Origin: Allacma fusca
Lineage: Eukaryota; Arthropoda; Collembola; Symphypleona; Sminthuridae
Assembly (NCBI GenBank): GCA_947179485.1
Contig: OX359248.1
Span: forward strand, 27,475,378-27,539,377
Length of the DNA: 64,000 bases
Reading direction: 5' to 3'
Position numbers and translations under genes: made by a program. This document shows positions 418 to 56,597 of this stretch, piece by piece (position 1 is the first letter of the stretch; the number at the start of each line of letters is the position of its first letter). The notes under the pieces were generated by a model. The model searched no databases, was not told the DNA's origin, and saw only the letters and a list, made by a program, of their open reading frames with translations.

Positions 418-1014
418 GTTAGTTCAAGTTGCAATATTCGCTTTTATTATCCGATATGCTAAATTAATTAAACAGATTTTTAGTTCTCCCTGAAGCTTTT
501 TTCACTGGGGGTGGGGTAGTTCAATTTTGGTTATCTATATATGTTGTATCAACTTTTTCTGGGAGTTACTAGACTATCAACTATGCTTGTTCACCTCTGC
601 GGACGACGGGTTGCGATGTCCTCCCATGGCTTTCCCGAAATGTATTGACAATTTAACTAAATCAAACCAACAAAAGCTCCAATATTTTTGGGTAAAATAC
701 ATGTGTGTAAGTAGATACATACTAAACTTGTTTGTGAATGAATTAGGAAGTCAGCGTTGTGAAAATATTGAAATAAAATCTTAGTCATTCAATCCACAAA
801 CGTGTGTGTACATACGTTTTTATTTAAGAGCACAAAATATGTGATGGAAAGATATGCGTATATATTTGTACTTAGATACAAATGTATGAAATAGGAACAA
901 AAACAATTTAAAATTACCTCGACAACTTTAATTTAATATTTTACTTCTAATACCAGCTAAAAATTTCTACATATTTTCTAGAAGTTTTTAAGCATGATCA
1001 TTAAGCACACGTAG
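418..1014. other. 3' flank of the giant repeat gene, no gene seen
   Basis: AT-rich sequence. A plus-strand frame at 527-784 has no family resemblance and no codon pattern, and I do not call it. The minus-strand 3' UTR of the repeat gene probably occupies about 820-1014. Confidence 0.5.
819..824 (-). terminator. Candidate polyadenylation signal of the giant repeat gene
   Basis: The canonical hexamer AATAAA lies on the minus strand about 190 bases after the stop codon at 1015. No cleavage site can be assigned from sequence alone. Confidence 0.4.
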
Positions 1015-4000
1015 TTAATAATCGCTGAAAACATCAATTTCTTCCAGGATGGCTCTCTTACCCCTACCGGCTGACCTAAGATGATGATTTAAGCCTTGTG
1101 GTTTCACAGCATGGTTTCCTAAACCCTGGTTATCAATTCGAAGCGGAGGTTCACTGGATGCAGAAGTAGGGGGAGGGATTTTGCTAGGAAAGTAAATTGT
1201 ACGTTGCTTCTCCATTTCTCTCCAGAAGCACAGCAACCGAGATACCAGAGCAGCATCCTTCCCATCACCCTTACCAGCTCTGGCAGACCTTCTTACTAAA
1301 ACGGGTGCTATCTTTCGTAACAGTTGATGGTATGATCGGTCTAAAATGATTTCAATATCCATTCCCAAACCACCCGGAGCTCCTGGGACTACCACAGCAG
1401 TAGTGCGAACAGCAGGATCCGCTGGCAATCCTGCTTTCTGCCAGCAGTCACAAAGAAATATTGAGACGCAGGATCCCGTTTTTTCATTGAAATAAGTATT
1501 CGTTGGACAAAGGTATATTCCTCTGTGTCCTGATCCATCATGGCACAATACATAGTAACGAGGGTCCCGAATTGGAAATTTTCCAGGACCTGGACAAACA
1601 CTAGTAACCCAAGGGATGGCGCTCTCGGGAGAAAGAATTCCTTCACGAGCGATGGGAACAAAGCTGGCAATAGCGTTTCCATTCCATGTATATCTATCTA
1701 AATTATTGATGGCCAGTAAATTGTGGTCGTAAGAGGCAACGCAGAACCCTACACTATCACTGTAAAATAAACCCTGGGGACACATGTACAGTGATTGATC
1801 ATATATACCTTCTTCGTCCGTAGTATCCTTATCATCTTCATCTGATTCATTAGAATCATCTCCTTTGTCAATTCCTAACGGACTACTTTTAACCATACAA
1901 GTGTAGTAATATCTAAAGTCTGGCATACTGAAGTAACCCGCTGATGTACACGGTGCCATTTCAAGATAAAACGTCGAAGATGCTGCTTGTTTAATACCAA
2001 AAACTAAATTCGGTTGACCAACAACTCCAGGCAATCCCACATGCGGTCGGGCAACTACATCCTTACTTCGTCCAGTGATTTGCAAAATGTCCGGTCGCTG
2101 AAGAACTAAATTAACTTCCCGAGCCAAATCAACTCCATAGCGGTAGCTTGAGGCTGCTATGACTGTTTCATGAACAAAGGTAGGAACGCAGTGACCTGCA
2201 CGGGGACTAAAGTAAAAACCAGAATGACAAATAAATAGTCGAAACACAACACCTTCCGGTAATTGATTTGTAACATAATAATATCGGAGGTCCGGAAGTG
2301 GGAATTTTCCTTCTTGGTCGGATGCCGGAAATTGGTATGGGACTGAGCCAACTGACACTGATATTCCAAGTTTGAGATCCATTCTTTGGGTGACGGCCCA
2401 GTGGGTATGAATTCCTGACCAGGTGACTTGGTACTGGAAATAAAATTATTCTCTGATATACACATCATATCTACATATGTGCACTAGACTACAATCACAA
2501 TGACAACATTACCGAAGCCAATTTATAAAAAAGGGTAAAACTGTAACTTTGCCCATGCACACAACAACGAACTCATCATACATGCTGGAATGAACATTTG
2601 CAATCTTTGAGTAATAACAACTTAGATGAAATTAAAACGTTGAACCTACATCCCTTCCCATGAATGCGGATGACTTGGTGCAAGACTGGTAGACAGGATT
2701 GTAGAAGAGTCCAACTTGACATTGGTAAAGCTTTGGTTCCAAATTAAGAGGTGATTTTCGATTTTGCTCACAAATGTAATAAAACCTGTAATCCGGGTAG
2801 GCATACATTCCCGCACTAACGCATTCTGGCAATATAAACAGCGGTGAACCTCGACTGACAAGGAATCCTGGAGAATTTCCGTACGGTTCGTCAGGCTTTG
2901 TTTGGAGCTCATTTCCAGATATACATTTGAGCCTTTTTTGATCGAAATAGTACCCAATAGGACATCTGTAAAGGGCACCTGGAAATAAATTTGTACATGT
3001 GAATTAAAACTGTGCGACAGTTTTCTCCTTTTTATTGAAACTAAACCAAGTATGCATAGGTCCATATATGAGTTGTTACCTGGAGAACCAGGCTGAGAAC
3101 ATTGCAAATAGTATCGGTTTTCATATCCGAAAGGAAATAGACCAGCTCCGGGACAATTACTTGAAATTCCAGGAAATTCGGAAAACTTGAGAGGACTTGG
3201 AACGCCGGGAGCAACAAACGGTTGCTTCAGACTCGGCCCAACGTGTATTCCCAAATCATTTCTAATTACGGAAACAGCAGAAGTGTGAATGCACTGACTG
3301 ATTCGAGGACTGAACAAATAATTCTCTCCACAATTCATTAATACAGGATTAACTTTCCCTGCTGGTGATCGAACACAGTGTAAGTAAATAGATCGATCTG
3401 GGGTAGGAAATTTACCTGGTCGCGAACAACCAGTTGGAGGGATAAGGTTGGGATTTGGAGCAGGAATCATTTCACCGAGTCTCAAAGTTTCAGCAGAAGA
3501 AACGGCAGCCAAACTTTTGAAGTCTTCGAAAGCAGTATCTCCAGAGTAGTCAAAACTTGAAACAATTCTTGTGGTGTAAAAATCAAATGTAACAGAGGTC
3601 ACGTAGATAGTTAAACTTGAAAAAAATGAGGAAGAGCTTGCGAATTCAGATGTGGTTGAGGACTGCGAAGACAACTGACTCATTTGAGTATTCTGAGAAG
3701 CACCAGAAGATCCTATTGCGCCCGAAGAAAACTGTCCAGAGTTTCCGCCAATATTCAATGCAGCACCTTGAGCAACACCACCTACTGCTGAATTTCCCAA
3801 GGACCTACCTGATGCAGCGGAATTTCCGAAAGAACCACCGGATGTACCAGAATTTTCGAAAGCACGACCAAGTGCAGATGTATCTCCGGCAGCTCCTGTG
3901 GATGCTCCGGAAGTTCCAACTGCACCACCAGATCCCGTAGATTTCCCGAAAGCTCCACCATTCGCACGAGAATTTCCAAAAGCTCCACCAGCATTGACTG

Positions 4001-7000
4001 ACTTTCCAAACAAACCCCCTATTGCCGCTGATCTTTCAAACCCACTACCAGTTATTGCTGAATTTCCTAAGGTACCACCCAATACTGCAGAATTTATAGA
4101 GGTACCACCTGACAAACCAGAACTGCCAAAAGAACCGCCTGCGGTCGCAGCACTGCCAACAGCAGCTCCGGCAACAGTTGTTCCCCCGGAAATTCCACCG
4201 CGAGAAGAAGCAGAGTTACCAAAAGCTCCTGCGGATGTGGTGGACCTTCCTAAAGATGCACCAGATAATTCAGACGTTTCTAAATTTCCAATAGATGCAG
4301 CGGAATTTCCGAAAGCCCCTGTGGATGACACCGAATTTCCTGATGCAACACCCAATGATCCCGAACGACCAGAAGAATCTCCGGATACTCCGAAATTCCC
4401 GAAAGCTCCACTTGATGAACCAGAATGTCCCGCAGCTCCACCAGATGCTCTCATATGTCCAGCGGATCCACCTAATGCGCCCGAGCGTCCAAACGCTCCA
4501 CTAGATGCTCCGGAACGTCCAAACGCCCCACCAGAGGATCTTGAATGTCCAATAACTCCACCAGATGCTCCTGATTGTCCAAAAGCTCCACCAGATGCTC
4601 CTGATTGTCCAAATGTTCCACCTGACAATCCTGATTGTCCGAAAGCTCCACCAGAAGCCGCTGATTGTACCAACGCTCCACCAGATGTACCCACGTTTCC
4701 AAAACTTCCAGCAGATGTTCCTGAATTTCCAAAAACTCCACCAGACGCTCCTGATCGTCCGGAAGCTAGACCAGAATCTCCGAACGCACCAATCGATGCG
4801 GCTGAGCGTCCAGAAGCACCACCGAATTCCCTTGAATGACCGAAAGCGCCACTAGATGCAACCGAATGTCCAGCAGCTCCACCAGATGCTCTGACATGCC
4901 CCGCAGCTCCAACAGATACTCCCATGTGTCCCGCAGTTCCGCCAGATGCTCCCATTTGTCCAGCTGATCCACCGGAACCTCCTGCATGCCCAATCCCACT
5001 TCCAGATGAACCCAAGCGTCCACCGGACATTGCCGAATTCCCAGTTGATCCACCTGTTTCCTCCAATACTCCACTAGATACTCCTGAGTGTCCAGTCAAT
5101 CCACCGGATACCCCTGCACGTCCAGCCGCCCCAATAGATGCTAATGAATGTCCAAGTGCTCCACCAGATGATCCAGATCGTTTTGATCCTCCACCGGCTG
5201 CTCCTGATTGTCCCATAGCTCCGCCAGACGCTCCTGATTGTCCCATAGCTCCACCAGACGCTCCTGATTGCCCCAATGCGCCACCAAACATTCCTGATTG
5301 TCCAAAACCTCCACCATGTTCTCCTGATTGTCCAACGGCTCCACCAGATGATCCTAAACGTGCAGATGCTACACCTGATGCACCTGAACGTCCCAACGCT
5401 CCACTAGACGCTCTTGATAGTCCTGAAACTCCAACAGACGATCTTGAATGTCCTGAAGCTCCACCAGACGCTCTGGATTGCCCAAAACCACCCCCCGATG
5501 CCCTTGATTGCCCAAACGAACTCCCAGATGCTCCTGATTCTCCCAAAGATCCACCAGATGCTCCGGATTGTCCGAATGATGCACCAGATTGCCCGAAACG
5601 TCCACCAGATGCTCCTGATTGTCCAACGGCTCCACCAGATGCCCCGGAACGTTCAGCCAAACCAATTGATGCTCCTAAACGTGCCGATGCTCTACCAGAT
5701 GATATTGAACGTCCCGATGCTCCATCGGATGCTTCTGAACGTCCAAACATCCCTTCAGATGCTCCGAATTGTCCGAAACGGCCTCCAGATGATCGGGATT
5801 GTCCAAATGAACCAGCAGATAATCCTGCCTGTCCGTATGCGCCACCAGTGGCTCCTGATTGTTTTAAAGCTCTGGTGGATGATTCTGAGTGGCCATTCGC
5901 TCCATCTGATACTCCTGATTGGCCAAACGCTCCAGCAGATGTACCTGAATGTCCGAATGCTTCACCAGTTGCTCCTAATTTCCCAACAGCTCCACTTGAT
6001 GATTCTGATTGTCCTAACGCCACGCCAAAGACTCCTGATTGTCCAATAGCTCCGCCGGATGACCCTGACTGTCCGAATGCATGACCAGCTCCTCCGGATC
6101 GTCCAAAAGCTCCACCGGATGCTGCTAATTGTCCAAACGCGTTGCCAGATGATCCTGATTGTCCAAACGACCCAACAGATGATCCTGATTTTCCAAAAGC
6201 CGCGCCAGATACTCCGGATTGTCCAAACGCGCCGCCAGATGTCCCTAATTGTCCGAATGCATGACCAGCTCCTGCAGATCGTCCGGAAGCTCCACGGGAT
6301 GCTGCTGATTGTCCAAACGCCCCACCAGATACTCCTGCTTGTCCAATAGCTCCAACGGATGCTCCTGATTGTCCAAACGCGCCGCCAGATGCCCCTGATT
6401 GGCCGAATGCATGACCAGCTCCTCCGGATCGTCCAGAAGATCCCCCGGATGCTGCTGATTGTCCCAACGCGTTGCCTGATGATCCTGATTGTGCAAAAGC
6501 CGCGCCAGATACCCCTGATTGTCCGAACGCATGACCAGCTTCTCCGGATCGTCCAGAAGCTTCATGGGATGCTGCTGATTGTCCAAACGAACCACTAGAT
6601 GCTGCTGATTGTCCAAACGCCCCACCAGATGATGCTGATTGTCCAAAAGCCCCACCAGATACTCCAGACTGTCCAAAAACTCCATCGGATGCTGCTGATT
6701 GTCCAAACGCCCCACCAGATGATGCTGATTGTCCAAATGCCCCACCAGATACTCCAGACTGTCCAAAAACTCCACCGGATGCTCCGGATCGTCCAAAAGC
6801 CCCACCAGATGCTGCTGATTGCCCAAACGCCCCACCAGATGATGCTGATTGTCCAAAAGCCGCGCCAGATGCCCCTGATTTTCCAACAGCTCCACCAGAT
6901 GATCCTGATTGTGCAAACGCCGCACCAGATGATCCTGATTGTCCCAAAGCCGCTCCAGATACTCCTGATTGTCCAATAGCTCCACCGGATGCTCCTGAAT

Positions 7001-10000
7001 GTCCAAAGGCGCCGCCAGATGCCCCGGATTGTCCGAATGCATGACCAGCTCCTCCGGATCGTCCAGAAGATCCCCCGGAAGATCCTGATTTTCCAAAAGC
7101 TCCACCAGAAGATCCAGATTGTCCAAAAGCCGCTCCAGATAATCCTGATTGTCTAATAGCTCCACTGGATGCTCCGGAATGTCCAAAAGCGCCGCCAGAT
7201 GCCTCTGATTGTCCGAATGCATGACTAGCTCCTTCGGATCGTCCAGAAGATCCCCCGGAAGATCCTGATTGTCCAAAAGCCGCTCCAGATACTCCTGATT
7301 GTCCAAAAGCCGCTCCAGACACTCCTGATTGTCCCAAAGCGCTACCAACTGCTCGTGATTGTCCGAACGCGTTGCCAGATGATCCTGATTGTCCAAACGC
7401 CCCACCAGATGATCCTGACTTGCCAAAGCCTCCACCGGATGCTGCGGTTCGTCCAAAAGCTTCGCCGGATGCTGCTGATTGTCCAAACGCCCCACCAGAT
7501 GCTGCTGATTGACCAAACGCCCGACCAGATGATGCTGATTGTCCCAAAGCGCTACCAAGTGCTCCTGATTGTCCGAACGCGTTGCCAGATGATCCTGATT
7601 GTCCAAAAACCCCACCAGATGATCCTGACTGCCCAAAGCCTCCACCGGATGCTGCGGTTCGTCCAAAAGCTCCGCCAGTTGCCCCTGATTTTCCAAAAGC
7701 TCCACCAGATGATCCTGATTGTGCAAACGCCGCACCAGATGATCCTGATTGTCCCAAAGCCGCTCCAGATACTCCTGATTGTCCAATAGCTCCACCGGAT
7801 GCTCCTGAATGTCCAAAGGCGCCGTTAGATGCTTCTGATTGTCCGAATGCATGACCAGCTCCTCCGGATCGTCCAGAAGATCCCCCGGAAGACAATGCTT
7901 TTTCAAAAGCTCCACCAGAAGATCCTGATTGTCCCAAAGCGCTACCAAGTGCTCCTGATTGTCCAAACGCCCCACCAGATGATCCTGACTGCCCAAAGCC
8001 TCCACCGGATGCTGCGGTTCGTCCTAAAGCATCGCCGGATGCTGTTGATTGTCCAAACGCGTTGCCAGATGATCCGGATTGTCCAAACGCCCCATCCGAT
8101 ACTCCGGATTGTCCAAACGCCCCACCAGATACTCCTGATTGTCCAAACGTGCCGCCAGATGCTCTTGACTGTCCAAATGCACGACCACTTCCACTAGTTC
8201 GTCCAAAACCTCCACCGGATGCTTCGGATTGTCCGAATGCTCCGCCAGATGCTCCTGATTGCCCAAACGCCCCACCAAATGCTCCTGATTGCCCAAACGC
8301 CCCACCAGATGATCCTGAATGTCCAAACGCCCCACCAGATACTCCTGATTGTCCAAACGCCCCACCAGATATTCCTGATCGTCCGAAGGCACCACCAGTT
8401 GTTTCGGATCTTCCAAGAACTCCATTGGATGATGCTGAGTTGCCGTTCGCGGAACCAGATATTCCTAATTGTCCAAACGCACCACCAGATGCTCCTGATG
8501 TTCCTAATGCTCCATTAGATGCAACAGAACGTCCAACTGCACCAATAGATGTTCCTGAATGTCCAACTGCACCAATAGATGTTCCTGAATGTCCAACTGC
8601 ACCAATAGATGTTCCTGAATGTCCAACTGCACCAATAGATGTTCCTGAATGTCCAAATGCTCCACCGGATGCTCCTGACTGCCCAGAACTTCCGCCAGAT
8701 GCCCCTGAATGTCCAGAAGCTTTACTAGATACTCGTGAGTGTCCCGTTGCTACAACGGATGTTACCAGGTGTCCGAGCGCTCCATTAACTGCCCCTGAAC
8801 GACCATACGCCCCACCAGACGCTCTTGATTGTCCAAAAACTCCGCCAGATGCTCCTGATTTTTCAATAGCTCCGGCAGATGCGTCTGATTGTTCGAATGC
8901 TCCACTTGATGCTCCAGATTGTCCAAAAGCTCCTTCCGATCCCCCTGATTGTGCGACTGCTCGACCAGTTGATCCTGATTGTCCAAAAACTCCAGCAGCT
9001 CCAGCATTTCCAAACGCTTCACTAGCTGTCCCAGCGTTTCCAAATCCTGCACGTGTATTGGCGGATCCACCGATGCTACTACCAGATGCTCCAGCGTTTC
9101 CAAATCCTCCGTGTGTAGTGGATGATCTACCGATGCCACCACCAGATGCTCCAGCGTTTCCAAATGCTCCACGTGTTGTGGCTGATCTTCCGATGATATC
9201 ACTAGATGCTGCAGAGCTTCCAAATCTGTCCTCAGCAGTTTCATCGGATGCAGCAGAGTTTCCGAAAGATCTACCGGATTGAACTGAACTGTCGAAAGCG
9301 CCGCCTAAAGAACCAGAATTTGCAGACGCGTGCCCATTTAATCCAGATTGACCAAGTACTCTGCCGAATTTGCCTGACCGTCCAAGGACACGTCCTTGGA
9401 CTGTTGATTGTCCTAATGATCGACCGGATGAGCCGGATTGGCTAAGACCACTTGAAGTTAACGAGGACTGATCGAATACTCCCCCGGATGCTCGTGACTG
9501 GCCTCGTCCTCCTCTATTATTGGCTGAATGCCCAAAAGTCCCACTGGATGCGACTGACTTACCGTAAGCACCTATATTTGCCGACGACTGACCATTGACC
9601 CCACCAGAGGAACTAGACTGGCCATGGGCTCCTGCAGTTAACGAAGATTGTCGAAGAGCTTCACCAGCTGCGACGGACTGTCCTAATCCAACTGCGTTTG
9701 CTGAAGAACGTCCCATTTCTCCAATAGAAGCGCCAGAATGGTTGATGGCACCTCTAGTTAACGAAGATTGACCCAGTGCTCCCCCAGATGACTCGCCGTG
9801 GTCTTCTCCATTAAGCGATGACTGACCAGAAGCCCCACCGGATGCGCCTGACTGACCGTAGGTACCTCCGTTTACCGTCGTTTGTGCGATCCCATCCCGT
9901 GAATCTCCATTAGTTAATCCTGGTTGATGTGATGACCCTTGGGAACTTGGTGCATATCCACCACATTGTGAGCAGTCAGGTGGCGGGAAGCATTTTGAAG

Positions 10001-13000
10001 CGTCGGCAAGTGAGCGGAGGTCAGAAGGGCAAATATTTACTTGTTGATAAAATCCTCCAGTTTGTGGGTTTTTCGTACATTTGATGAAGTACCGAGCTTT
10101 CCCTTGAATCAAAATAATGCCCTCCCTTTGGCAAGGTGCAATAGTTATTGAAAATGTACCTTCGTAGTCACCACCTTGATCTTTTCCTAACGGTGCATTC
10201 TCCGGTCTGGTATCAGGTCGTTTCCTAATATTTCTGGCTACCCTGGTGAGGTTACTGAAAAAAATTATTTCAGGCGATTAGAGTTGTAAAATGAAACAAT
10301 AACTTATTGCACCTAGAATATAATGTATGCACATAATTGTCTAACTCAGCCAAGTAGAATCCCGTTAGCAAAGCTACCAATCAATTCATCTTCAATAATT
10401 GCTGTAAAATACCATTCCGAATCTACCCATCACTATTTTACTGAACTTCAACATATGAACATACTTGTGGTTTTAAAGTCAAACTTCATTTTACATCATT
10501 TGTTTTTGTATTTTGAGTGTCAAACTATTCATTGAGCCCTATAATTATAGTACATGTACGTTCCAACACCGGTCATATCTATGATTTTATATTTACGGAA
10601 ATAACATGTAGCTCATTAGAAAGCCCACAAAATTTGTAACAAATGGGTTTCAGAACATATATGGGAAGTATTTCTGACCAAGAAGAAAAAATGTTAATTT
10701 AACAAATAAAAATCAAGCTGCCTATATAAAATGCACACACATGTTTTTTTAATTATTTCAGAAAAAAATTCCAATATTTTGCAAAATCATTATTTTTAAA
10801 CTTCGAAATAAGCTGTCACTATTTTGTGCTTTCTTTGCGCTGATTGTGAGTGGGTATTTGTACATACACAATACTTACACTTCACACTGCCGACATTTTA
10901 GGCAGCGCAATTCCATTTCGTTGTGTAATCCATTTTGTTTAAAACTCGGAGTCATTATATGTTCCGTGTCCAAATGACCTAACCGTGTTGTTTTTACACT
11001 TAAAATAACACCATTATTCCACAGCATTTTGTGAAGGCCAAACATTGGACTACATTAAAGGTGTGGCCCGCGGGTAAAAATTCAGGTCGGGCCTAAGCCC
11101 GACCCGCCCGTGCGGTTTATGGGCGGGTTCGGGTTTAGTGCTTTGCCATGTTGCAAGTTGCGGATCGGGCTGGGGTTTTATCGTATTTCAACGGGCTGGG
11201 TCAGGTTGTACTTTATGCACTTAGTGCGGGTTGCGGGCGGGTTCGGGCTAGACTTAAATATACTTTGAGCCCGCAAGCAACCCGCAAAACGTTTAAACAA
11301 TCAACTACGTTTAGGATTTTTCCACTAGAATTATATGGTTTGCATTCATTTGAGCTCACATGTTTGTGAATTTGCAACTGTTGGTTGATACTATTCCTGT
11401 TTCATCGTGTTTCTCGCTTATCATGCTGTGGATGTGACTTGTTGTATTGTAACGTTTTAAAGTTGCTACTCTGAACTCAAAAGCATGTAGAATTTCTTAG
11501 CGCAGTATTCTTACAATTAGTTAACAATTCCTGCAAGTGATTTTCAAACATAATATGACATTGATTAAAACTGAAACCAGCTACAGTTATTTAAAAGGAT
11601 TAGAAAATATTTATTTTTCTGTTTCTATGGTTTATACTTCTGTTTTAGACATTGTGATGGAGCGTGATAGCGTTTTACTACACATTTGCGGGCCCCCGCG
11701 GTGGCCCGCAAGCTGAGTCGGGCCGTGTCAACTGAAACCCGGCGGGCTGCGGTCTGGTGCGGGCCTAAAAAATTAAGATTTGGACGGGGCGGGCCGATGT
11801 TTCAGAGGTTGAATTTCGGGTCGGGCGGGTTCGGGTTACGTGTTTGCGGGTAACACTCGGGTTGGGTTGGGGAACGGCCTGCGGGCCACGCCTTTAGACT
11901 ACATTGTCGAATATAATTGTCCCTAGCCGTACAGAAGCTGTGGAAAGGGCAAGACCGAAAGATGCGGGGAATAGAACACTCGAATTAATTTCTTTCGCGA
12001 ACAGTACCAACAATGAGTAGTTCCAAATGCACAATGGACAAAATATATATCAAGACTTGTACGACCGAAATTTTGTGGGTTGCCCTATTGAATAAAAACA
12101 TTACCCCAACAGTAAAAACAAGATCGGCATTCATGTTGCCCATTCGAGCTACTATACCCGGAAGCCTGGAGAGGGAAATTTTCGACTGAGTTCAACTTAC
12201 TACTCAAATCACTCAAAAAGTTTGCATGTCTCGTTATCGAATGATTTAATACCCACGGCTCCTCCCGTAAATAATTGACCCATCCATACGCGCGAAAATC
12301 GGATCGCAATATTTTTCCATTGTGATAGAAATCTATTGATCTAGAAATCCTTTGCTCTCGCAATGGAAAAACATTGCGATACGTATTTCTCGCGTATGGA
12401 TGGGTCAATTTTTTACGGGAGGAGCCGTGGGTAATAAATCATTCGATAACGAGACATGCAAACTTTTGAGACTTTGAGAGTACCCTGTCATGCCAGAAAT
12501 CATATACCATGTAATATACCACCAAACTGGTATATATCGATCTATACCAGCCTAAAAGGCCCTCTTTCAACCCCCAATATGAATGCAAATTATCTTTAAG
12601 ATTTAAAAAAAATTGTTCGGTCACCCTAGTTCAAAAACTCGGGATACAACGTTCATGGAGGGCAGTCAGGACTTTTTTCAAAGGACCTTCAAAAATGCAC
12701 ATGAGATCTCTACGCTGAATACTTTAGCTACAAAATCATAAAATAGTCTGATCAATCGAAATTTAAATGAATAAGTTTGAATCGTGTAAGTGCTTCAATG
12801 TTCGTTCCAATTTCACAAATTGGGCCACCTCTAGACCTCATGCAAAGCCATTAAATGATCTCACCGATCCAAACGGAACTATAGCCTTCTCCCCTCACTT
12901 CTAATAACGAGCCTTCCTACCTCTCCTAAACAAGTGCGAATTTGACCAACGCGTCTTCTCTGACTCTTTTTTACTCTTTAACCTCAGATTAGGGAAAAGA

Positions 13001-13611
13001 ATTTCTCATTGCCATTCAATTGCCTTCCAAAGCAGGTACTTTTTGGAAAGTCCTTAAAATTTACTCCTAGCAAGCATGATGAAATTTAAACCAAAATTTT
13101 CAGTTCAAAACTTCAAGAAATCATGACTTTACTCCACCTCCCTCAACGCCTGTATTCAGAGATTTTGAGCTAGAGGGATGGTAAGAATTTTGAGAAATCT
13201 GAAAGAAAAAATTCTACAAAATGACAGAATTGAATATTTTTTGACTGGGCCTTTAATGTGTTGATGGCGGGCATGTATTGAGGCACCCTGTAAATATGCA
13301 TATACGAATTTCTTTTGAGATGGATTCATGACTATGATTATACTTTTCAGAAACGAACTTTTAACGGGTAATAAAAAAATGTACTCACGCTAATTGGTCA
13401 CCATGTAGACCTCGTAAATTATCGCCGTCATCTTGCTCACTCAGTGCCGAGAACTGCAACGGTTCACTTTGGGCAAAATAGGTAACCTACAATTCAAAAT
13501 GTTACTCAGTTGAACCAAAAAATAAGAATTGAATAAGTATTAATTGCAATTGTGGGAAATCCGTCTTACCCGGCTCAATAATATGCTAAATATTAAAATA
13601 TTTAGCAGCAT
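1015..13611 (-). CDS. Giant secreted chitin-binding, silk-like repeat protein (about 3,020 aa, five exons)
   Basis: Exons on the minus strand: 13611-13570, 13486-13389, 10254-3080, 2978-2650 and 2433-1015. All introns are GT-AG and the phases agree, giving 9,063 nt. Residues 1-19 form a signal peptide (MLLNILIFSILLS core, likely cut after TYFA). Residues 88-144 hold six cysteines (88, 106, 122, 135, 141, 144) in a peritrophin/CBM14-like module. About 200 decapeptides of the type GAFGQSGASG follow. The C-terminal part (about 2,318-2,870) has six modules of the form C-x-G-x-F-P-x-PD-x-RYY-x-C...C...C; the fourth lacks its first two cysteines and the fifth carries an acidic Asp/Glu insert. The domain pattern is seen in the sequence; chitin binding is known for the CBM14 family; a role in cuticle, peritrophic matrix or silk is inference. 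The start is the first ATG before the hydrophobic stretch. Cross-exon continuity is strong, but the exact orthologue is unknown. Confidence 0.85.
3740..9900 (-). repeat. 30-bp coding minisatellite (about 200 units) encoding GAFGQSGASG-type decapeptides
   Basis: Almost all of the large exon is a tandem 30-bp array. Each unit encodes ten residues, with fixed Gly and Ser and variable third and fourth positions (AF, AL, AI, SS). Units diverge most near both ends and are most alike in the middle (about 5.2-8.7 kb). Larger blocks of several units recur between about 6.07 and 7.9 kb, marked by a Gly-His-Ala-Phe unit at about 6.08, 6.26, 6.41, 6.53, 7.04, 7.22 and 7.85 kb. Because the unit is a multiple of three and has few stops, long open frames also appear in other frames and on the other strand; I treat these as by-products. 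Confidence 0.9.
8531..8650 (-). repeat. Four perfect 30-bp copies within the minisatellite
   Basis: The same 30 bases occur four times with no change at 8531, 8561, 8591 and 8621, encoding repeated GTSIGAVGHS. Neighbouring units differ at several positions, so this block looks like a very recent local expansion. Confidence 0.9.
11056..11896. mobile_element. hAT-like non-autonomous DNA transposon in intron 2
   Basis: This 841-bp element has terminal inverted repeats TAAAGGYGTGGCCCGC at both ends. It is flanked by the exact 8-bp duplication GACTACAT at 11048-11055 and 11897-11904, as expected for the hAT superfamily. It is far more GC-rich than its surroundings and rich in GGGCGGGTTCGGG-type motifs near both ends. 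No transposase frame is visible. It is missing from the matching intron of the duplicated copy, so it inserted after the duplication. Confidence 0.8.
12197..12485. mobile_element. Long palindrome / foldback MITE in intron 2
   Basis: Two arms of about 125 bp (from about 12212, and back from 12470) are inverted copies. They share GTTTGCATGTCTCGTTATCGA, ACGGCTCCTCCCGTAAA and CATCCATACGCG. The spacer is only a few tens of bases, so the RNA would form one long hairpin in the pre-mRNA. There is no coding capacity. Confidence 0.7.
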
Positions 13612-19150: not shown

Positions 19151-22100
19151 CTAACCTGCTGCTCCACCACATAGTGAGCAGTCAGGTGGCGGGAAGCATT
19201 TTGAAGCGTCGGCAAGTGAGCGGAGGTCAGAAGGGCAAATATTTACTTGTTGATAAAATCCTCCAGTTTGTGGGTTTTTCGTACATTTGATGAAGTACCG
19301 AGCTTTCCCTTGAATCAAAATAATGCCCTCCCTTTGGCAAGGTGCAATAGTTATTGAAAATGTACCTTCGTAGTCACCACCTTGATCTTTTCCTAACGGT
19401 GCATTCTCCGCTCTGGCATCAGGTCGTTTCCTAATATTTCTGGCTACCCTGATGAGGTTACTGAAACGAAATATTTGAGGTAACTATATAGAGTTGCAAA
19501 ATGAAACAATAATTTATTGTACCTTGAAAACAATATATGTACATAATTGTCAAACACAACCAAGTAGATTTCTTTTAACACACCTACCAATCAACACATC
19601 TTCTTTAAAGATTGAAAATATACCGAATTTCATCACCCTAAATGCGTTCAAATTTAGGTACCAGTAAGTGTTTTTTCACCCCAAAACTACTTTAAGTAGG
19701 GTTTCTGTTCGGGATGGGACGTCCCGAGGTTTTCAGGACGGGATCAGGACAGTTTCGGGACAAACGTTTTGTCCCCATGTTATTTCGGGACGGAGTGGGG
19801 ACGCACATTTTTGTCCCGAGGATTTCGGGAGGGAATTGTCTGCGGGACAAAAAAAATCCCCATTAGAAGCCCTAACTTTAAGAAGACATTTTTGAGTTGA
19901 AAATATACAGAACATAGATATGTGTAATAAATTTAGATATGTACTTCTTTCGAACCGTCGTGGTAGCACCGAATCAAATTTATGTTTTACCTTCCGGGTT
20001 TTCAATTTTTTTTAACTAAATTATTATCAAAATATTGAGTTTACATTTTTTTACAAATGTTTTGTTCTGGACAGCCAGGAACGACAACCGATCAGCCTTA
20101 ATTCCCTATTCTTCTCACCTAAGCGAGGGGTTATTGCAGAAGAATTCTAACAGATGCATTAATCTTGGGCATTTCAATGGCGTACATATTCTCTAATTTT
20201 GATTTTTATTATTTTGCCTCCGTCGAGCTTTCCATCTCTAAGGTCAAGGTCAATCATAAATCTTGCCGACAAAGGGATATTACCGGTGTGTTGATGTTGT
20301 ATTGGAAAAAACTTAACATGTCACATGGAAATACTGCTGTAGAAATGGTTATTAAAGATAGAGCGGTTTGTATACTTGCTGCAAAGAAACAATTTACCCC
20401 CCCCCCTCCCCCAAAACAAGAGGGATGTACAAATATATTCGATTTCCCACTATTTGGAAATATATTTACAGATTTTTCATTTTTCTCATGCAGTAGCAAG
20501 CCCAAAAACTGAAAATATAGAGGCCAAATAATTGAATTGTTTTGATAGGCCAAATTTTGGAAGTAATTAATTGGTTATTGCAATTTCAAATTTCTTGCGA
20601 GGTATATCACTTCGTTTAGCCGGATAGTATATTAATTACAGTGAAAACTTAAACAACGTATTAAATCTAAAGCAAAAATATTTTACACGAAGACGTTTTT
20701 CTTGATGGTATCGAATTCAACTAAATTTATTTTGGTTCTTCATTTTAGGAAATTTCACCCATGCTTTATTTTGGAAATATCCATTTCGGGGTGTAGTCAT
20801 AGGATCAACATAGAGTAAGTCGATCGTGTTGAGTGCTACAATTTTTTAAAAATTTCCAAAATATTTGGGAAGTGATGGTTTTTACACTTCGAGGTACGTT
20901 TCCACTATTGGCTACTATCTGTATGCTGAGTATTTGTACATCCAATGTTTACGCTTGTGAATGTTCGTATACAATGTTAACATATGTAAATGTTCACATA
21001 TAGTGTTTACACTACCGTAATTTTAGGGATGTTTAATTCAATGTAATCAATTTTTAAAACAACTCCGAGTCAGCGTTTTCCCTGTGCTCAAAATGCTGTA
21101 CTGTACCATTTTCTCCCTTAAACGATAATTTCAAAATTTTAGGGTATTTCGGGAGAGCGGATTGCTAAGAAAAACTTCTCGGAATTTCTTATTAAATCGA
21201 GAAAATATTGGAATCGGGAAACCGAATATTCTTGATTTTTGGATTTCAATGGTTTGATGGAGGAAATAGTTTGAGATACCCACCCTGTACGTACCGCAGG
21301 GGAAAATGCCTTGGGTTTTATGCCTGTCCACCTGTAATGCCCCGAAAATGCCAAAAACGCCGAAAATTTCTTCCTTTGAAAATGCCCGGCATTTTGGGCA
21401 GGCATATTCGGCATTTTGGCAAAAACATGAAAATGAGCATTGAAAATATATATACACTATGACCATTGTTGATCGTATAGCGCAAACATGGGAGTTTGTA
21501 TGACATTTTCAAGCCCATCCAGTCTGAAGAAAGTTTTAATGTTGATTTTCCAAAAAGAAATCCAATTTTCTTAATTCATTATTTATGATCCATGGTTTCA
21601 AAAATGAGCTAAGAGAAGATTTCAAATATCCTTAAAAATTTTGCAATATTCATTTGCTTTCAAAAGTTGCAAACACTCAGCTCTATTATGTTATAAGGCT
21701 TCACGGGGTTTAAAAGAAACACTTGACCACTGCCTGTGAATGTTTCAAATTTGGATAATAGTAATAAAGTTTCATTAATAATGAATTTTGTATTTTATAA
21801 CTTTATTACATACGAACTTGCCGTTGTAAAATATTTCAAAACTTGGAGCTTCTATAGTAAATTTTATTGCACCAAGTAAAACACTAATTTTAGGAGCATA
21901 CATTATCAAACATGCGAACGAGATCCTAATAATATAAAGTGTAAAATAATCATTTGTTTTTCATAAAATTGTCTATTTAAAGATATTGTTTTGTGATTTA
22001 GTATGAAAAATTAGTAGATAGCTGAAGCTCATATTGAAAAAATCAGGGCGAAAATGCCGAAAATGTCTGACCTAGACTGAATATGCCCAAAATGTCGAAA

Positions 22101-22465
22101 ATGCCATAAAATGAAAATGCCCAAAATGCCATGGCATTTTCAATTTTGCAACCCTGTAAGTACATATAATATAGTTCTTGTGTATTCATGACTATGATTA
22201 TAGATTTTAAAAACGAACTTCTAAAGGGTAATATAAAGAGTACTAACGCTAATTGGTCACCATGTAGACCTCGTAAGTTATCGCCATAATCTTGCTCACT
22301 CAGCGCCGAGAACTGCAACGGTTCACTTTGGGCAAAATAGCTAACCTACAATTCAAAATGTCAGTTGAAGCAACAAAATATGAACTTTAAGAACTAATTA
22401 CAATTTTGGGAAATCCGTCTTACCCGGCTAAATACTACGCCAAATATTAAAATATTTAGAAGCAT
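19151..22465 (-). CDS. Truncated tandem duplicate of the giant repeat gene: 149-aa secreted cysteine-rich protein
   Basis: Exons: 22465-22424, 22345-22248 and 19460-19151, in phase, 450 nt in total. The protein has the same signal peptide type (MLLNILIFGVVFSR) and the same six cysteines as the giant protein's N-terminal module. It then ends at CGGAAG followed by a stop exactly where the giant protein enters its repeats. The third exon matches copy A with four differences in about 298 bp, all changing an amino acid; exon 2 differs at five of 98 positions and exon 1 at five of 42. The second donor is GTTAGT instead of GTGAGT but is still usable. It could be a working small chitin-binding protein or a still-open pseudogene. 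Transcript evidence is needed to decide. Confidence 0.65.
19697..19874. mobile_element. Short hAT-like MITE (178 bp) in intron 2 of the duplicate
   Basis: The termini TAGGGTTTCT and AGAAGCCCTA are imperfect inverted repeats. They are flanked by an exact 8-bp duplication ACTTTAAG at 19689-19696 and 19875-19882. The interior is rich in GGGAC/GTCCC motifs. It is non-coding and absent from the matching intron in copy A. Confidence 0.75.
21297..22156. mobile_element. CAGGG-terminated DNA transposon with AAAATGCC subterminal repeats
   Basis: The left end is CAGGGGAAAATGCC and the right end GGCATTTTCAATTTTGCAACCCTG. Many AAAATGCC/GGCATTTT motifs in both orientations cluster at both ends. A flanking GTACGTAC/GTAAGTAC pair may be a degraded target duplication. 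These features suggest a hAT-like non-autonomous element. It lies in intron 2 of the truncated gene. No transposase frame was found. Confidence 0.55.
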
Positions 22466-27594: not shown

Positions 27595-29490
27595 TCAATT
27601 ACTTCTGTGACCTAGAAACTCTCCAGGGTTTGACGCGAGTAGTTTAACTTCAGCTTTCTGATACAAATCTCTAACTTCGTCTTCCTTAGCTTTGTAGGCA
27701 TTATCGATACGGATGCACTTCTTGGTCATATCATGTACGAAAGCATCCCATTCTGCAGCCCTTTCGGAACGCTTTTGCTCTAATCGAGCAGCAGAGACTT
27801 TATCGGAAGACTCTGCTTTCTGGAGGAGTTTCTTCGAAATAGACTCAGCTACTTGCAATTCTGCCGACAGTTTCGGTAAATGTATGTCTGCCAGAGACTT
27901 CACTTTGGTAATTTCCGTATCTTTCAGCTCCGTTGTTTTCTCCAGTATTTTGAACAGATAGTCCACTTCACGGTCACCTCTTGTGTCCTAGTCACAAAAA
28001 TAATCCAAATTACATTCAGTTATTTCACCAGATTCACAAGACCCTCGTTTTAATTTAGATGTATAAAGGGTTGGCAGTTGGCAGTAACATCTGTCCCTCT
28101 AATATCTCCAAAATACAATCATGCTACACAATTTTTGATGTCTTTTTATCTTAAAATTGTACTCCGGTTAGGAAAAAATGTCAAGCAAAAAATTAAAACA
28201 ATAAATTATAAAAGTTATGACCAGTAAATAAAAAACACTCGAAGAATCAATTTTGGTAGGCGTTTTCAAACTTCATTCTAGCCTATACGCGGGTAAGGAC
28301 GTAGGAGCTTCGAAAATCAGCCACTGTCACTTTTCATCCATTCCAGCCTCTAAATTATCTCTTCGTGCACTTATTCGTGTTAGGAAATTGGTGTTGTTGG
28401 GAAATTTCTGAGTCAGAAGATCCTCGACGTTTCATTTCAAGTTGGCTCCCAAGTACTCACAAAAGGATTTAAAATTTAAATCCTTATTTAAAATGGACAA
28501 TTTCCAGGTCTGGTGACATCATCTGGGTCTAAGAAATTACCGGGATCCTTCAGAGTTGGAATCCCTTCTTACCCCAGGATGTCATTCTGCAACAAGGTAC
28601 AGGGAGACTTCCTCCATCCATAATCTTAAGAAATTGGTCCGAACTCCATGAATACGGAAAAGTGGCCCCTTTTTAGTTATCCCTCTTCACCCTGACTTTG
28701 TTTAAGAAAATCGCTCATTTCTATGTTTATGAACCGATTGCTTTGAAAACTGGTAGATCCGCAATAAAATTCTGTCCAAACATTGCTTCCTACAATTATC
28801 CTGCAATCGAAGATCCTACATAGCACACGCGGGACCAAAGTTATCAGCGACCCTCTACACTACAAGCTAAATTTTATCTTTGCTTTAAAAAATCGGGGGA
28901 TTTGTCATACCAACCCAAGTATCTGACATACATCTTCAACTCCATACCCAAATATAACAAAGCGCATACATTTCCCATCTCAAATTTCTTTTCTCGCTGA
29001 TGAAATCTCTCTCCGAATCATCAATCCATACAAGGAGATACACATACTACAAGATATCCTCTCCACTTACTTCAAACTCCCGGACAAAATACTCAATTTC
29101 CTTCCTAGTTAATGGGGAGTGATCAAAAATCGATGAGTAGATCTCGCTCGCATCTGTAAGAGAAATTACCATGAATCAGGACAACAATAACCGTGTGCTT
29201 CGATTACGAAAGGAACGTGTGTACAACATAAAATCTCTCCCAGTCCACAACCAAGACTGCCTCTCAACATCAGATACAAAACATTAACTTGATGCATACG
29301 CACAAATAATAATCATTAGCATGACAAAACCAGTTCGCATTTAGCATTTATCCCAATAAATGGCACATAAACACTCCACAAACACACGCGAACTATGTAT
29401 AGCACCAACACACATGCCACATTAAATTTCGCAAAGTAGAGCATTTCAAAAACAAATAAACTCTCTACCTTTTACTGCTCCGTCAGTCAT
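27595..29490 (-). CDS. BLOC1S5: BLOC-1 complex subunit 5 (Muted) homologue, 165 aa, three exons
   Basis: Exons: 29490-29469 (MTDGAVK), 29153-29071 and 27987-27595. The phases are consistent, giving 498 nt. Recalled family features are present in order: the EIYS...DH.P segment, YFVREFE, the R-G-x-R-E helix start, HLPKL near the middle, EWDAFV, and a charged C-terminal coiled coil. The protein is slightly shorter than human BLOC1S5 (187 aa), mainly at the N-terminus. The family is a coiled-coil subunit of BLOC-1, which sorts cargo from endosomes to lysosome-related organelles such as pigment granules. The first coding exon is only 22 nt, and the start ATG is the one that joins in phase to exon 2. 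The gene lies divergently to ASAP. Identification rests on remembered family sequence, not a search. Confidence 0.85.
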
Positions 29491-51733: not shown

Positions 51734-54153
51734 TCAATATTGTACAAACACATCCTCCTCATGTCCATTGTTGGCCAACTTGAAGTGGGGCGGGACGTTG
51801 GAAGTGCTCTCCAAAGATTTTTTGGCACAGTGAGTGCCACGACCAGCACACATCTCCAGAGGAAGCTGATGAAGCAGTCCAGAAATAAATCCAGCGTTGA
51901 GGCAATCTCCTGCCCCAGAAACACTCTTCAAATCCTTTGGATGAATATCCGGTGCGGGAAAATGCATGGCACTGAAGCTGTTTCCATCTCTTTCCAGAAC
52001 CTTAAAATAGAGAGCATCACATTTTAAAATCCTGTAAAATTTGATTAATTAGAAGTTGGGGAGGGGGGAGGTGTGGGAAGGAGGGAGGAGAAAATAGAAC
52101 ATTAAGCTTTGAGAAGAAAGCCGAGTATTAGCATAACTTACAAAAAATCCTTGGGTTCCTCTCGTGAGTAAAATAATTTCTAGACCGGTGAATATGGAAA
52201 AACAATGGGAGATTAGGTGAGACAAAGTGGGATGGGTTGGGAGGAAATTGCCAGCGGTTAGAATTTCATTGATGTTCATGTCAATATTCATAGAAATGGA
52301 TGAGTTATCTCCTGCTTTGTCCCAATTATCAAAGCCTTTTTCAAGCGTTGCAAATTCAGCCTGTGAACTCGGAAGAGCCGTAATGCTCATCAGTTCACGG
52401 AGATTAGGTGAGATGTAACGAAGGCTGCTCCAGTACTCCCGGGGTACCTCTAAAATCTTCTTTGCCTTCCGGATTTCCGTCGGCTCGAACCATACTAGTA
52501 ATTGTGTATGCATGTGCCCGGCAAATAATCAACAAAATTATCGTCACTACTCACAATTCCATCCATATTACTGATACATTCAATACACATTCAACTCTAG
52601 AGCGTTCCCTCCCAATGGTTCCTAAAACTTTCATCGTCCCACGGATATATATATATTTTCAGATCGTGCTCAGAGATTATTTTCCTCGTAAAACTAAAAC
52701 AACCCACCACAAACTGGAATCTCTCCCACCGCCAAAACGACTACTATTCCTCCATATTATAATTACTACACACATCCCTTTCCACAGGAAAGAGAGAGAC
52801 AATTACATGGAGGTGCATCCATCTGTGTACATACTATTCATGGTTGTATTTTATTTCAAATAATTTCCACCTTGGAGTGGGAAACATGTATTTTTGGCAT
52901 GCTATTACATTTTGTGGGGGGGAAAAACTCAGAGTAATATCCGGAGTACTCAGATTGGAAATGGAAAAGGAAAACTCACGTGGAACAGAATAACGAAAGC
53001 AGATCTCAAAGACAGTAGACATTGTTTCTGTTGGGATATTCCCATCAAGGAGGACAATGGAGGCTCGTCGAATATCTTCAATGTGCCCCTTCAACATTTC
53101 TGAAGAGATGTCACAATGAACTGTCATGTCACCCAATCCAAAAACACATTCTCCTTTGTGGTTGAGCAGGGCTGAGTAAATTGCTGTAGGGCTTTTAGCT
53201 GTCAGGATACCTGCCATGTCCTATGAGAAACAAATTGAAGTTTTTTAATGCATGCATAATTATATCCTTGAATATCGTACACACAACTTTTTTCCATTAC
53301 CATATACACATCTTAAAGGGCGGCTGTACTGACTATACTAGCATCATGTACGAGGATGCTTCAATATGTAGCAAAATACCTAAAGTTTCGTATTTTTCCC
53401 CAGCTCTTTATTTTCATTCAAAACATAAGGCTAAGCCAATGTTAGTAAACGCTAATCACTCTTTGGAAATCAGGTTGAATGAAATCCGTTGAAATAGGGC
53501 TTACGCAACTGCATGTGACATGGCTCAAAATTTTGGATCCTACAGATACTTTACCTTCACTTGTGTGGAAGTGTATTATAGTGTGTTTATATTAATTAAG
53601 GATATATACTATGAGGCTTGAAATGCCTTTAATACAGGTCTAATGAACTAAATCCCTTTTGACATTGCTTTCCTTTTAGAGACTTTTAAAACAAAAAAAA
53701 AACTTGTTTGCCGAACTTTGCCTTCCAATTAAGCATGACCTCCAGAAACTAAACGAAGTACAAATTTTGTTTCGGAGAGACTAAAAAATAAATTCCGGGA
53801 TTGGAATAAACCTTTAAGATTAATTCCGGAAAGGCTGAGTCAACCACAGTTGCAAAGGTTTAGGTCAGGGCTGTAATAAAAAATCTCATCAAGTTTTATC
53901 TCTCTCAACCCTCATATGCCTTGTGTGCTTATGAATCGAAAATTACACGGGTCGTAACCAGACGTAAACGTCGGGAAATATGTACCATTTGATTTTCCTT
54001 GAAATTCCTCACAATCTCCCGACCAAACAAGTCATTCCCGATGGCTGAAATGAACAAAGGACTGTGGCCTAGTTTCTGCAGTGCCTCCGCCATATTTCTT
54101 CCCACTCCTCCTGGAACAGTTCGGATCTTTGTTCGATGAGTTCTTCCATCTGA
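51734..54153 (-). CDS. PfkB-family carbohydrate kinase, pseudouridine-kinase-like (5' end not resolved)
   Basis: Exons on the minus strand: 54153-53986, 53220-52980, 52494-52142 and 52000-51734, all in phase, encoding about 342 residues up to the stop. Seen: PfkB signature 1 as PGGVGRNMAEALQKLG, FISAIGNDLFG, VLLDGN, LWFEPTEI (compare PVWFEP), SPNLREL, and signature 2 as SVSGAGDCLNAGF with the catalytic-base Asp in GAGD. The GGVGRN/SVSGAGD combination is typical of pseudouridine kinases, which phosphorylate pseudouridine from RNA breakdown. The N-terminal strand with the GGxxxD sugar-binding motif was not found, so at least one 5' exon is missing. A 27-nt exon at 56624-56598 (MGSEKLAGP, good donor) is phase-compatible but unproven. 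A fused PsuG glycosidase domain was not seen. Confidence 0.8.
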
Positions 54154-56597
54154 CTGCAAAATACATTGAAATAATAAACTTAGAACAGAATAATTATTAT
54201 TATACATTAAAATAAAAAAAATAAGACTTCTCATTTCCAGCGACAAAATTATTAACAACCTTGCAAGTGCCCTTGAACATTGTATTGCATAACAATGACC
54301 TTAATAAATCCCAGTTACACTTCATGCGTTAAAATCGATTTTCATCTCTAAAATTAGTTTTTATGACACACTAACCAAGGAATCAAAATGTTTGGGAATT
54401 AAAACCTTCTGGAACATACATATATACGCTTCAATCAAAATATACAGTGCAAGAATCCCATTATTTTAAATTTGAGAAGAAATATTACTAAAAGATTAGA
54501 ATAGTACAAGGAAACTACATTTTTCTCGAAATTCTCTTTTCGGCTAATGAACAATAATAATAATTACTACTGGTGTAGGAACATGCAAGTAAATAATAAA
54601 GTACGTCAGAAATTGCACCTCAAGAGGTTCTCCGTCACTTGAAGAAATTCCAATACATACTCCATCCACACATATGTATGTAATTACATAAATAGAAGAA
54701 ACTAAATTTGAGAAAATGATTTGTAACAACTGGCTCCTATTTGTTTCCTTGCACGCGATCACACTTTACCTTTCTCATCAACTTACCACAAATAGACGCA
54801 TCTGTGTAAATCCGAGATTGGAAAACCTAAATTATTATGCGCCCATAACTGTCTCTGTACATATGAATGTACTTGGATGCAGTTCCATTCCCTACATACA
54901 AATATATAGAGGCATACGTCCCGAACAAATAAGGTCCTGCACGGAAACACATTTCAATGTGGGGTAATAGAAACCCGTAAACTTTTCACAGCTCGGGATA
55001 TGTACGTACCTGCTACTGCTCCCTGAGAACATATATATGTAGTTACCTTATGTACGTCTGTACATGCATTTATAATTACTGGTGTAAAGCAATGTCGAGG
55101 GTGCTCCATATTTCAAGGCTACCTCTCTGTACGTACATATGTAGACACATTTCGGACCCGAAATTATCCGTAGACGAAAATTTCCTCATAAACTACAATT
55201 AATTAACACTTTATTCTCTCCTGCATTTTCCTTTCCTGCCAGAGAACAACTCATAGAAGAGAGCTTCCTCCCATAATTAAAGTCTATTTCTCCTTATTTA
55301 ACCCCACCGCACTCCCATCCTACATTTCTTCAGTGGGATAAAACTTTCACAGACATCACCCGAAACTTTCCTCAATGAACTACCGCTCTGCTGAATAAAA
55401 TCTCAAGAAATATTGGATGAAGGCATCTTGATAGTTGAAATTTATTTAGCATGAATTAAGACTGAACACTTGCCAGTTGTTATCCATGAATTACGAAAAT
55501 CCATTTCAAGTCACAACTGCACCAACAGGGTGGAAATTTCAAAGAGGTACATATACATACATAGATTGCAGGAATATCAAAACTTGAATATTTAAGTATG
55601 TATGCGACATTTGGTATCCAAATGATTTGAATTTTAAGTTGGAAGTTTCAACTGTAATAATTTTTACTGGTGGAAACTGCAATGGAAGCAATAAAGTCAT
55701 TAGTTTCAAATTAAACTGAATCTGTAGCAATGACCCTGACTCAGACTTGCAGTTTGCAGTGACTCCGTCTGAACTTCTTCATCACGACTGCACCCTCAAA
55801 TGATAAATGCACAGTGTACAGGGGCTTGAGGTACAATAAAAGTTAATCACTCAAATACATTTCCAATTTAAGCGAAATCCTATAACTAGCATAATCCCAT
55901 TACGCCCAGTATTTTATATATAAGTAGATAGTCAAAGCCAGTATATCCCATTCTTTAGTATTGAGAGCACCTCTTCTTTAATTATGGCAAGAGTGCTTAT
56001 GTATACGTACCTACAGCTAATGCAGCTTCATTAACTTTCATCATAATTTTCAGTATCTACATCTTGCTACTCTACACTGTGTTCATATGACATGACCCAA
56101 GAGTATACGTTATTCAAACAACTGAAAATGCTATTAAGTAAGAGACAGACTCCTGATATTTTTTCGCGGAGACTTGCCCAGTAACGAAAGTACAGAAACC
56201 CAAGGCAATATTATATTAGGGACAAGTCAATAGTAACTATCTACCTCACGGGCTATTACAGTCTTGGCAGAAAAGTCCTCAAAAGAGAAACACAACTTTC
56301 CCTCCTGAGTATTATCAATTGATTATATTACATTCGTAGTGAGGAATGTGAGTGTAGGTGGAGAGTCATATTAATATCATTAGACTCTGATTCTATCGGC
56401 AATATTATGTTCATGCATCATAAACTATTTTCATATCTTCATGTGATCACCACAGCGGAAAATCAAAACTGAAAAGTAAGAGTTCTTCCCCGTCTTACTG
56501 CATATAATTATACATATATACATACCTATATAGATTTGTGTGTGTGTGTATGGCAGGATTCCTATACGACGTTTCAGGGAAATACTGAAACACTTAC
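54154..56597. other. Probable 5' intron of the kinase gene, no exon proven
   Basis: Strongly AT-rich. I looked for a short exon with a GGxxxD motif on the minus strand and found none. No gene on the plus strand is supported. Confidence 0.4.

Follow-up and report, generated by a model that had tools for sequence, protein, structure and literature searches.

What does a springtail build when it joins cysteine-containing modules of the chitin-binding kind to about two thousand residues of a repeated decapeptide? This question is raised by a gene of Allacma fusca (Collembola) located on the minus strand of chromosome 4, where it runs from position 13611 down to position 1015 of the 64,000-nucleotide stretch analysed here (contig OX359248.1, positions 27,475,378 to 27,539,377; hereafter, the window). 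A first-pass annotation had taken its product for a self-assembling, silk-like fibre anchored to chitin at both ends. The analysis described below points instead to a structural protein that would be secreted into a chitin matrix, either cuticle or peritrophic matrix, where a chitin-docking tail would sit on a long, flexible, and cohesive chain, a reading to which we give an even chance. The anatomy, CBM14 plus a low-complexity stretch, is already known in kind; what is unusual is that the modules are so poor in cysteine and that the core is built of decapeptides. Titles and abstract starts, which cover only part of the literature, turned up no paper about the protein.

Gene Structure

The five-exon structure proposed earlier stands at the level of sequence. 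Its coordinates are exact, the introns start with GT and end with AG when read directly, and translation of the joined exons from the ATG at 13611 to the stop codon ending at 1015 gives 3,020 residues with a single, terminal stop; a 2,543-codon open frame lies within the gene. Exon 1 (13570..13611; this and the following features lie on the minus strand) encodes MLLNILIFSILLSR, the start of a probable signal peptide whose hydrophobic stretch was read directly, and exon 2 (13389..13486), placed by splice sites and phase, encodes a sequence beginning with VTYFAQSEPLQF. Secretion of the protein is thus probable from its hydrophobic start MLLNILIFSILLS, as judged by eye. Exon 3 (3080..10254; 7,175 nt) contains RVAR and RNIR sites, the N-terminal module, the decapeptide core, a linker, C-terminal module 1, and the first half of module 2, while exon 4 (2650..2978) holds the second half of module 2 and module 3, and exon 5 (1015..2433) holds modules 4–6 and a C-terminal tail with an RGKR site (residues 3005–3008), 12 residues short of the C-terminus. 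The motif AATAAA at 819..824, read directly about 190 nt past the stop, is a candidate polyadenylation signal.

The Decapeptide Core

The core (3783..9869, by codon arithmetic) spans residues 176–2204, so that the roughly 2,000 residues of GAFGQSGASG-type decapeptides announced for a single 7.2-kb exon amount to 2,029 residues in exon 3. It corresponds to about 203 decapeptides, which a cyclic profile parses into 207 pieces, 195 of them exactly ten residues long and 176 distinct, with eight register breaks over the whole length. The profile, which was trained on the very core it scores, gives 1730 for the natural order versus -1129 ± 36 for shuffled sequences (n = 20). The consensus of the unit varies along its length (G69, A65, F51, G88, Q48, S85, G57, A42, S75, and G71 per cent), and the overall composition is 29.8% Gly, 22.1% Ser, 15.5% Ala, 5.5% Phe, and 4.8% Gln, with 6.8% charged residues, no Cys, Pro, or Trp, and only 4 Tyr and 15 Lys. 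These few Tyr and Lys residues and the lack of Cys would leave hardly any scope for di-tyrosine, lysine, or disulfide cross-links within the core.

The sense frame is free of stops over this region, whereas the other five frames contain 32, 46, 193, 18, and 42; the consensus is stronger at codon positions 1 and 2 (mean 0.80 each) than at position 3 (0.64); and the ratio of non-synonymous to synonymous differences per site (pN/pS) is 0.63 over 186 adjacent unit pairs and 0.67 over 2,703 sampled pairs, values that derive from saturated distances and serve as a rough guide. Together, the codon-position bias and pN/pS indicate that it is the repeat at the protein level that has been maintained. 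Units far apart are almost as similar as neighbors (identity 0.52 at one unit, 0.48 at 60 units), and a single pair of 60-residue windows reaches at least 90% identity (58 of 60 residues, lag 270). Since unit identity barely decays with distance, the array is not freshly expanded, and recent expansion was ruled out as its origin.

No Pfam family, Nucleoporin_FG included, matched the four core pieces scanned (window 3642–9728), and both that family and any other Pfam family were therefore rejected as its identity in these pieces. Similarly, a 301-residue core piece had two matches in the Protein Data Bank (PDB) at an E-value (E) of 0.07, which were judged to be low-complexity chance and not structural relatives.

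The Flanking Modules

Six modules follow the core and share the frame C ... RYYxC ... C ... C, except for module 4, which retains the last two cysteines only. Their relationship to CBM14, claimed from the start, was upheld by the profile search then called for: exons 4 and 5 score 30.6 and 31.1 bits with Pfam CBM_14 (cut-off 22.1), and a query covering modules 1–3, approximate in that its first five letters are wrong, scores 46.6 bits. In scans of single modules, modules 2 and 6 pass the cut-off, while the other four fall below it with CBM_14 still as the best family; no family other than CBM_14 passes the cut-off in the flanks. Moreover, a profile of the C-terminal modules aligns with a profile built from ten canonical CBM14 modules of the same genome over 39 columns (probability 95.9%, E 5.2e-9). 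For module 1 (3270..3446, by codon arithmetic; residues 2317–2375), an AlphaFold2 (AF2) model, for which the other five modules served as the alignment, reaches a predicted local distance difference test score (pLDDT) of 88.1. The four best PDB matches of this predicted fold, all with probability 1.00 and E between 0.0083 and 0.077, are the chitin-binding domain of Blo t 12, Avr4 twice, and EHEP, the last two of which we take to be CBM14 proteins.

These are not, however, the ordinary peritrophin modules that had been assumed. The six-cysteine CBM14 pattern is found nowhere in this protein and fits none of the seven modules, while the same pattern, with an aromatic filter added, yields 24 matches, one of them straddling two modules, in 23 other loci scanned.

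The N-terminal module (9957..10157; residues 80–146) contains Cys 88, 106, 122, and 135, followed by Cys 141 and 144. Its assignment as peritrophin-like was not confirmed, with no Pfam match and no match to the canonical CBM14 profile (probability 0.7%, E 0.078, 17 columns). It aligns weakly with the C-terminal modules (hhalign probability 17%, E 0.0014), with a score of 19.93 that none of 200 full and none of 200 cysteine-fixed shuffles reaches, the closest being 19.8, and perhaps it is a diverged relative. The PDB gave three matches, all at E above 1, and no structural relative was accepted. Because this module is not recognized as CBM14, the claim that the protein grips chitin at both ends is weak.

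Proposed Function

The function that best fits these features would divide the labor between the tail and the core. The six CBM14-derived modules, mostly with four cysteines, would dock on chitin or serve as cross-bridging knobs, and the core would be a long chain, poor in charge and disordered for the most part, in which a Phe comes about every ten to twenty residues. Between the chitin layers, such a chain could act as a brush or gel that is elastic or weakly cohesive, and not as a beta-crystalline silk, filling and springing the interlayer space while weak Phe and hydrogen-bond contacts hold it together. The excess of Phe–Gly pairs in the core, for which counts are given below, speaks for this proposal. 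A location in the cuticle would agree with one article, an excerpt of which mentions glycine-rich structural proteins in the cuticle of Orchesella cincta (PMC9861782).

Several observations weigh against this proposal. The statement on Orchesella cincta concerns another species and, in that excerpt, names no protein (PMC9861782). None of the 399 Foldseek matches of the module 1 model has an E of 0.001 or less, and the single chain that a PDB sequence search with exon 5 found is a chitinase (E 0.76). Contrary to disorder, AF2 made the core an ordered array of beta-strands in one of its five models. C2, a defining cysteine of CBM14, is missing from all seven modules and C6 from five of the seven, and chitin binding may therefore be lost.

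The extent of this loss differs among modules. CBM14 domains have disulfide bridges between cysteines 1–3, 2–6, and 4–5. Module 4 also lacks C1 and C3, while in module 6 (Cys 2876 and 2878) and the N-terminal module (Cys 141 and 144) later cysteines, six to nine residues past the fourth, are possible stand-ins for C6. Under this bridge pattern, modules 1–5 would appear to lose whole bridges, whereas module 6 and the N-terminal module would not.

Alternative Explanations

The fibre originally proposed, a self-assembling silk type with true peritrophin modules holding chitin at both ends, is unlikely. Its silk-like label survives as a description of composition, with Gly, Ser, and Ala making up 67% of the core, but not of motifs: the core contains no GAGAG, GAGAS, or GSGAG, no poly-Ala run of four or more, and its glycines are spaced by three and not by two residues. 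Modules do flank the core on both sides, and the weak alignment of the N-terminal module with the C-terminal ones also speaks in its favor. Nevertheless, CBM_14 is the only Pfam family above its cut-off in the flanks and none emerges from the four core pieces scanned, and the canonical CBM14 profile misses the N-terminal module. Self-assembly into fibres is conjectural.

Likewise unlikely is a stiff, chitin-tethered filament in which the core forms a long beta-solenoid or amyloid-like rod with one AFGQS strand per decapeptide. That the register breaks so seldom along 2,029 residues fits such a rod, and when a 100-residue block was modelled by AF2 with ten further blocks as alignment, the best model showed ten strands at residues 2–6 of each unit (pLDDT 67.7). 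However, the other four models stayed at pLDDT 28.6–34.8, and Foldseek found six PDB matches for the strand model, all at E above 1 and with a probability of 0.02 or less. AF2 has also been reported to give unrealistic beta-solenoids on perfect repeats of random sequences (excerpt of PMC11795689), and little weight is placed on the solenoid model for this reason, although the repeats of this core are imperfect, unlike the perfect ones of that excerpt.

A third idea, which we regard as having a slim chance, is that the protein forms a counterpart of the nucleoporin FG gel outside the cell, with reversibly sticking Phe–Gly pairs tethered to chitin by degenerate CBM14 modules. Nucleoporin chains of the GLFG type carry Phe–Gly pairs in a charge-poor chain of Ser, Gln, and Gly, and such pairs are enriched in the core (102 observed versus 33.2 ± 4.7 expected in 2,000 shuffles, with a maximum of 50). 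A self-healing, selective hydrogel would then join the chitin layers in place of covalent cross-links, for which the core offers little, and a truncated copy of the gene, described below, might contribute the N-terminal domain by itself, which would cap assembly or compete with it. Unlike nucleoporin GLFG repeats, however, this chain would be extracellular and is Ala/Ser-rich, very regular, and devoid of Nucleoporin_FG matches in the four core pieces scanned.

A bundle of the collembolan polyproline-II (PPII) antifreeze type, in which the decapeptide is read as GXX GXX GXX G, is very unlikely. Glycine recurs in the core at lags 3 (0.53) and 7 (0.52), and also at lag 10 but not at lag 2, and springtail PPII antifreeze proteins are built on GXX triplets, three to four per helix in Cryptopygus (excerpt of PMC10235112). 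Yet continuous triplets are missing here: the longest pure GXX run comprises six triplets, the register is broken at most units, and the core has no cysteines. The protein is also far bigger than the 8.5- and 15-kDa antifreeze proteins, and none of these was found in eight Symphypleona genomes, with the warning in the same excerpt that genes of this type easily escape a search (PMC10235112). Least probable of all is a decaying or non-expressed gene, which the two further cysteines missing from module 4 and the adjoining truncated copy would suit. Against it stand an open frame of 2,543 codons, splice sites that are all intact, and the codon-position bias.

Genomic Context

Both the core and the C-terminal exon are single in this genome of 392,743,791 bases in 91 contigs. 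Beyond the gene itself, nothing matches the C-terminal exon even with a limit of E 1. For the 301-residue core piece and a limit of E 0.001, there are 21 matches, of which 11 fall inside the gene and 10 elsewhere at 23–35% identity, the latter judged to be low-complexity. A second full gene elsewhere was ruled out, as these core matches are all that lies outside the locus, and the two genomic copies of the N-terminal module are both at this locus. Five of the ten outside places were examined: L034–L036 are cuticle-type frames with Trp/His decapeptides, and L037 and L038 are other Gly-rich frames. The three cuticle-type loci, on chromosome 1 at about 29.6–30.1 Mb, carry arrays of GHGWGHQEVK-like decapeptides, and Pfam finds Chitin_bind_4 in both of the two scanned, L034 and L036 (E 1.4e-14 and 4.6e-15).

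A genome search with CBM_14 gave at least 132 stretches (150 of 285 candidates scored), none of those in this gene. Ten loci with long CBM14 frames (L024–L033; the two longest frames of each examined) have Thr/Pro, Pro/Val, Gln/Pro, or GGSSQN repeats and none a Gly/Ala/Ser/Phe core, in agreement with the early judgement that the combination is unusual. One of them, L025 (C5:50306500-50316000, X1), has a 1,684-codon frame in which six-cysteine CBM14 modules lie between runs of the GGSSQN hexapeptide, and is a second chitin-binding protein with Gly/Ser linkers.

A partial tandem duplicate lies upstream at 22465–19151 (minus strand) and mirrors the part 13611–9957 of the gene. What recurs there is the promoter region, the two short exons 1 and 2, and the opening 300 bases of exon 3 (blocks 23407–22151 and 19603–19163); identity is 82–86% for exons 1 and 2 together with the flanks and 92.5% for the last block. 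Its exon 1' (22424..22465, minus strand), exon 2' (22248..22345, minus strand; donor GTTAGT in place of GTGAGT), and exon 3' (19151..19460, minus strand) form an intact frame of 149 residues, in which the N-terminal module is followed by CGGAAG and a stop where the repeat would start. Over 147 codons, copy and gene differ by 12.5 non-synonymous and 4.5 synonymous changes (pN 0.037, pS 0.045), which gives no sign of strong constraint on the copy. Gene and copy share 237 identical bases over the module, more than expected from the flanks, and recent gene conversion over the N-terminal module is therefore likely. The copy may be a pseudogene or encode a short secreted N-domain; separately, a GTTAG donor in exon 3', seen by eye, is in the phase of exon 4 and may allow alternative splicing.

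Intron 2' of the copy contains an interspersed repeat of about 0.85 kb (21302..22156, no strand assigned): with 40 of 2,246 candidates scored, 75 of 77 matched pieces fall at query positions 309–1169 and all six large contigs are hit. In intron 2 of the main gene, about 250 bp (12216–12467) match their own reverse complement (88%), like a small inverted-repeat transposon. Ordinary neighbors are pieces of a PfkB-family kinase (51737–54300, minus strand) and of Muted (BLOC-1; 27598–27987, minus strand), and scans of the whole window with Rfam and for tRNAs were empty.

Relation to Known Systems and Significance

In its combination of CBM14-derived modules and long repeats, the protein resembles peritrophin-A/CBM14 proteins with low-complexity, mucin-like linkers, which this genome encodes at L024 and L026 (Thr/Pro-rich) as well as at L025, with its six-cysteine modules among hexapeptides. 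It differs from peritrophins in having no six-cysteine module and one unbroken core of 2,029 Gly/Ala/Ser/Phe-type residues in place of Thr/Pro linkers. A springtail decapeptide array joined to a chitin-binding domain is likewise found in the RR-type cuticle proteins of L034–L036, although these belong to the Chitin_bind_4 family and have Trp/His/Lys-rich repeats and frames of 271–367 codons. Silk fibroins and spidroins also place a repeat core dominated by Gly, Ala, and Ser between non-repetitive ends, but this core departs from them through its lack of crystal motifs, its Gly at every third residue, and the Phe and Gln in its unit, and the Pfam scans of both protein ends and four core pieces found no spidroin family and no known silk terminal assembly domain at the ends.

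If the gene is expressed in the cuticle, the glycine-rich structural proteins that have been mentioned for this tissue in springtails would gain a named candidate, and materials work would gain a natural chitin-docking polymer with a defined ten-residue unit. Furthermore, assuming that the predicted fold is right, the cysteine-poor modules would show how much CBM14 can lose while the fold persists.

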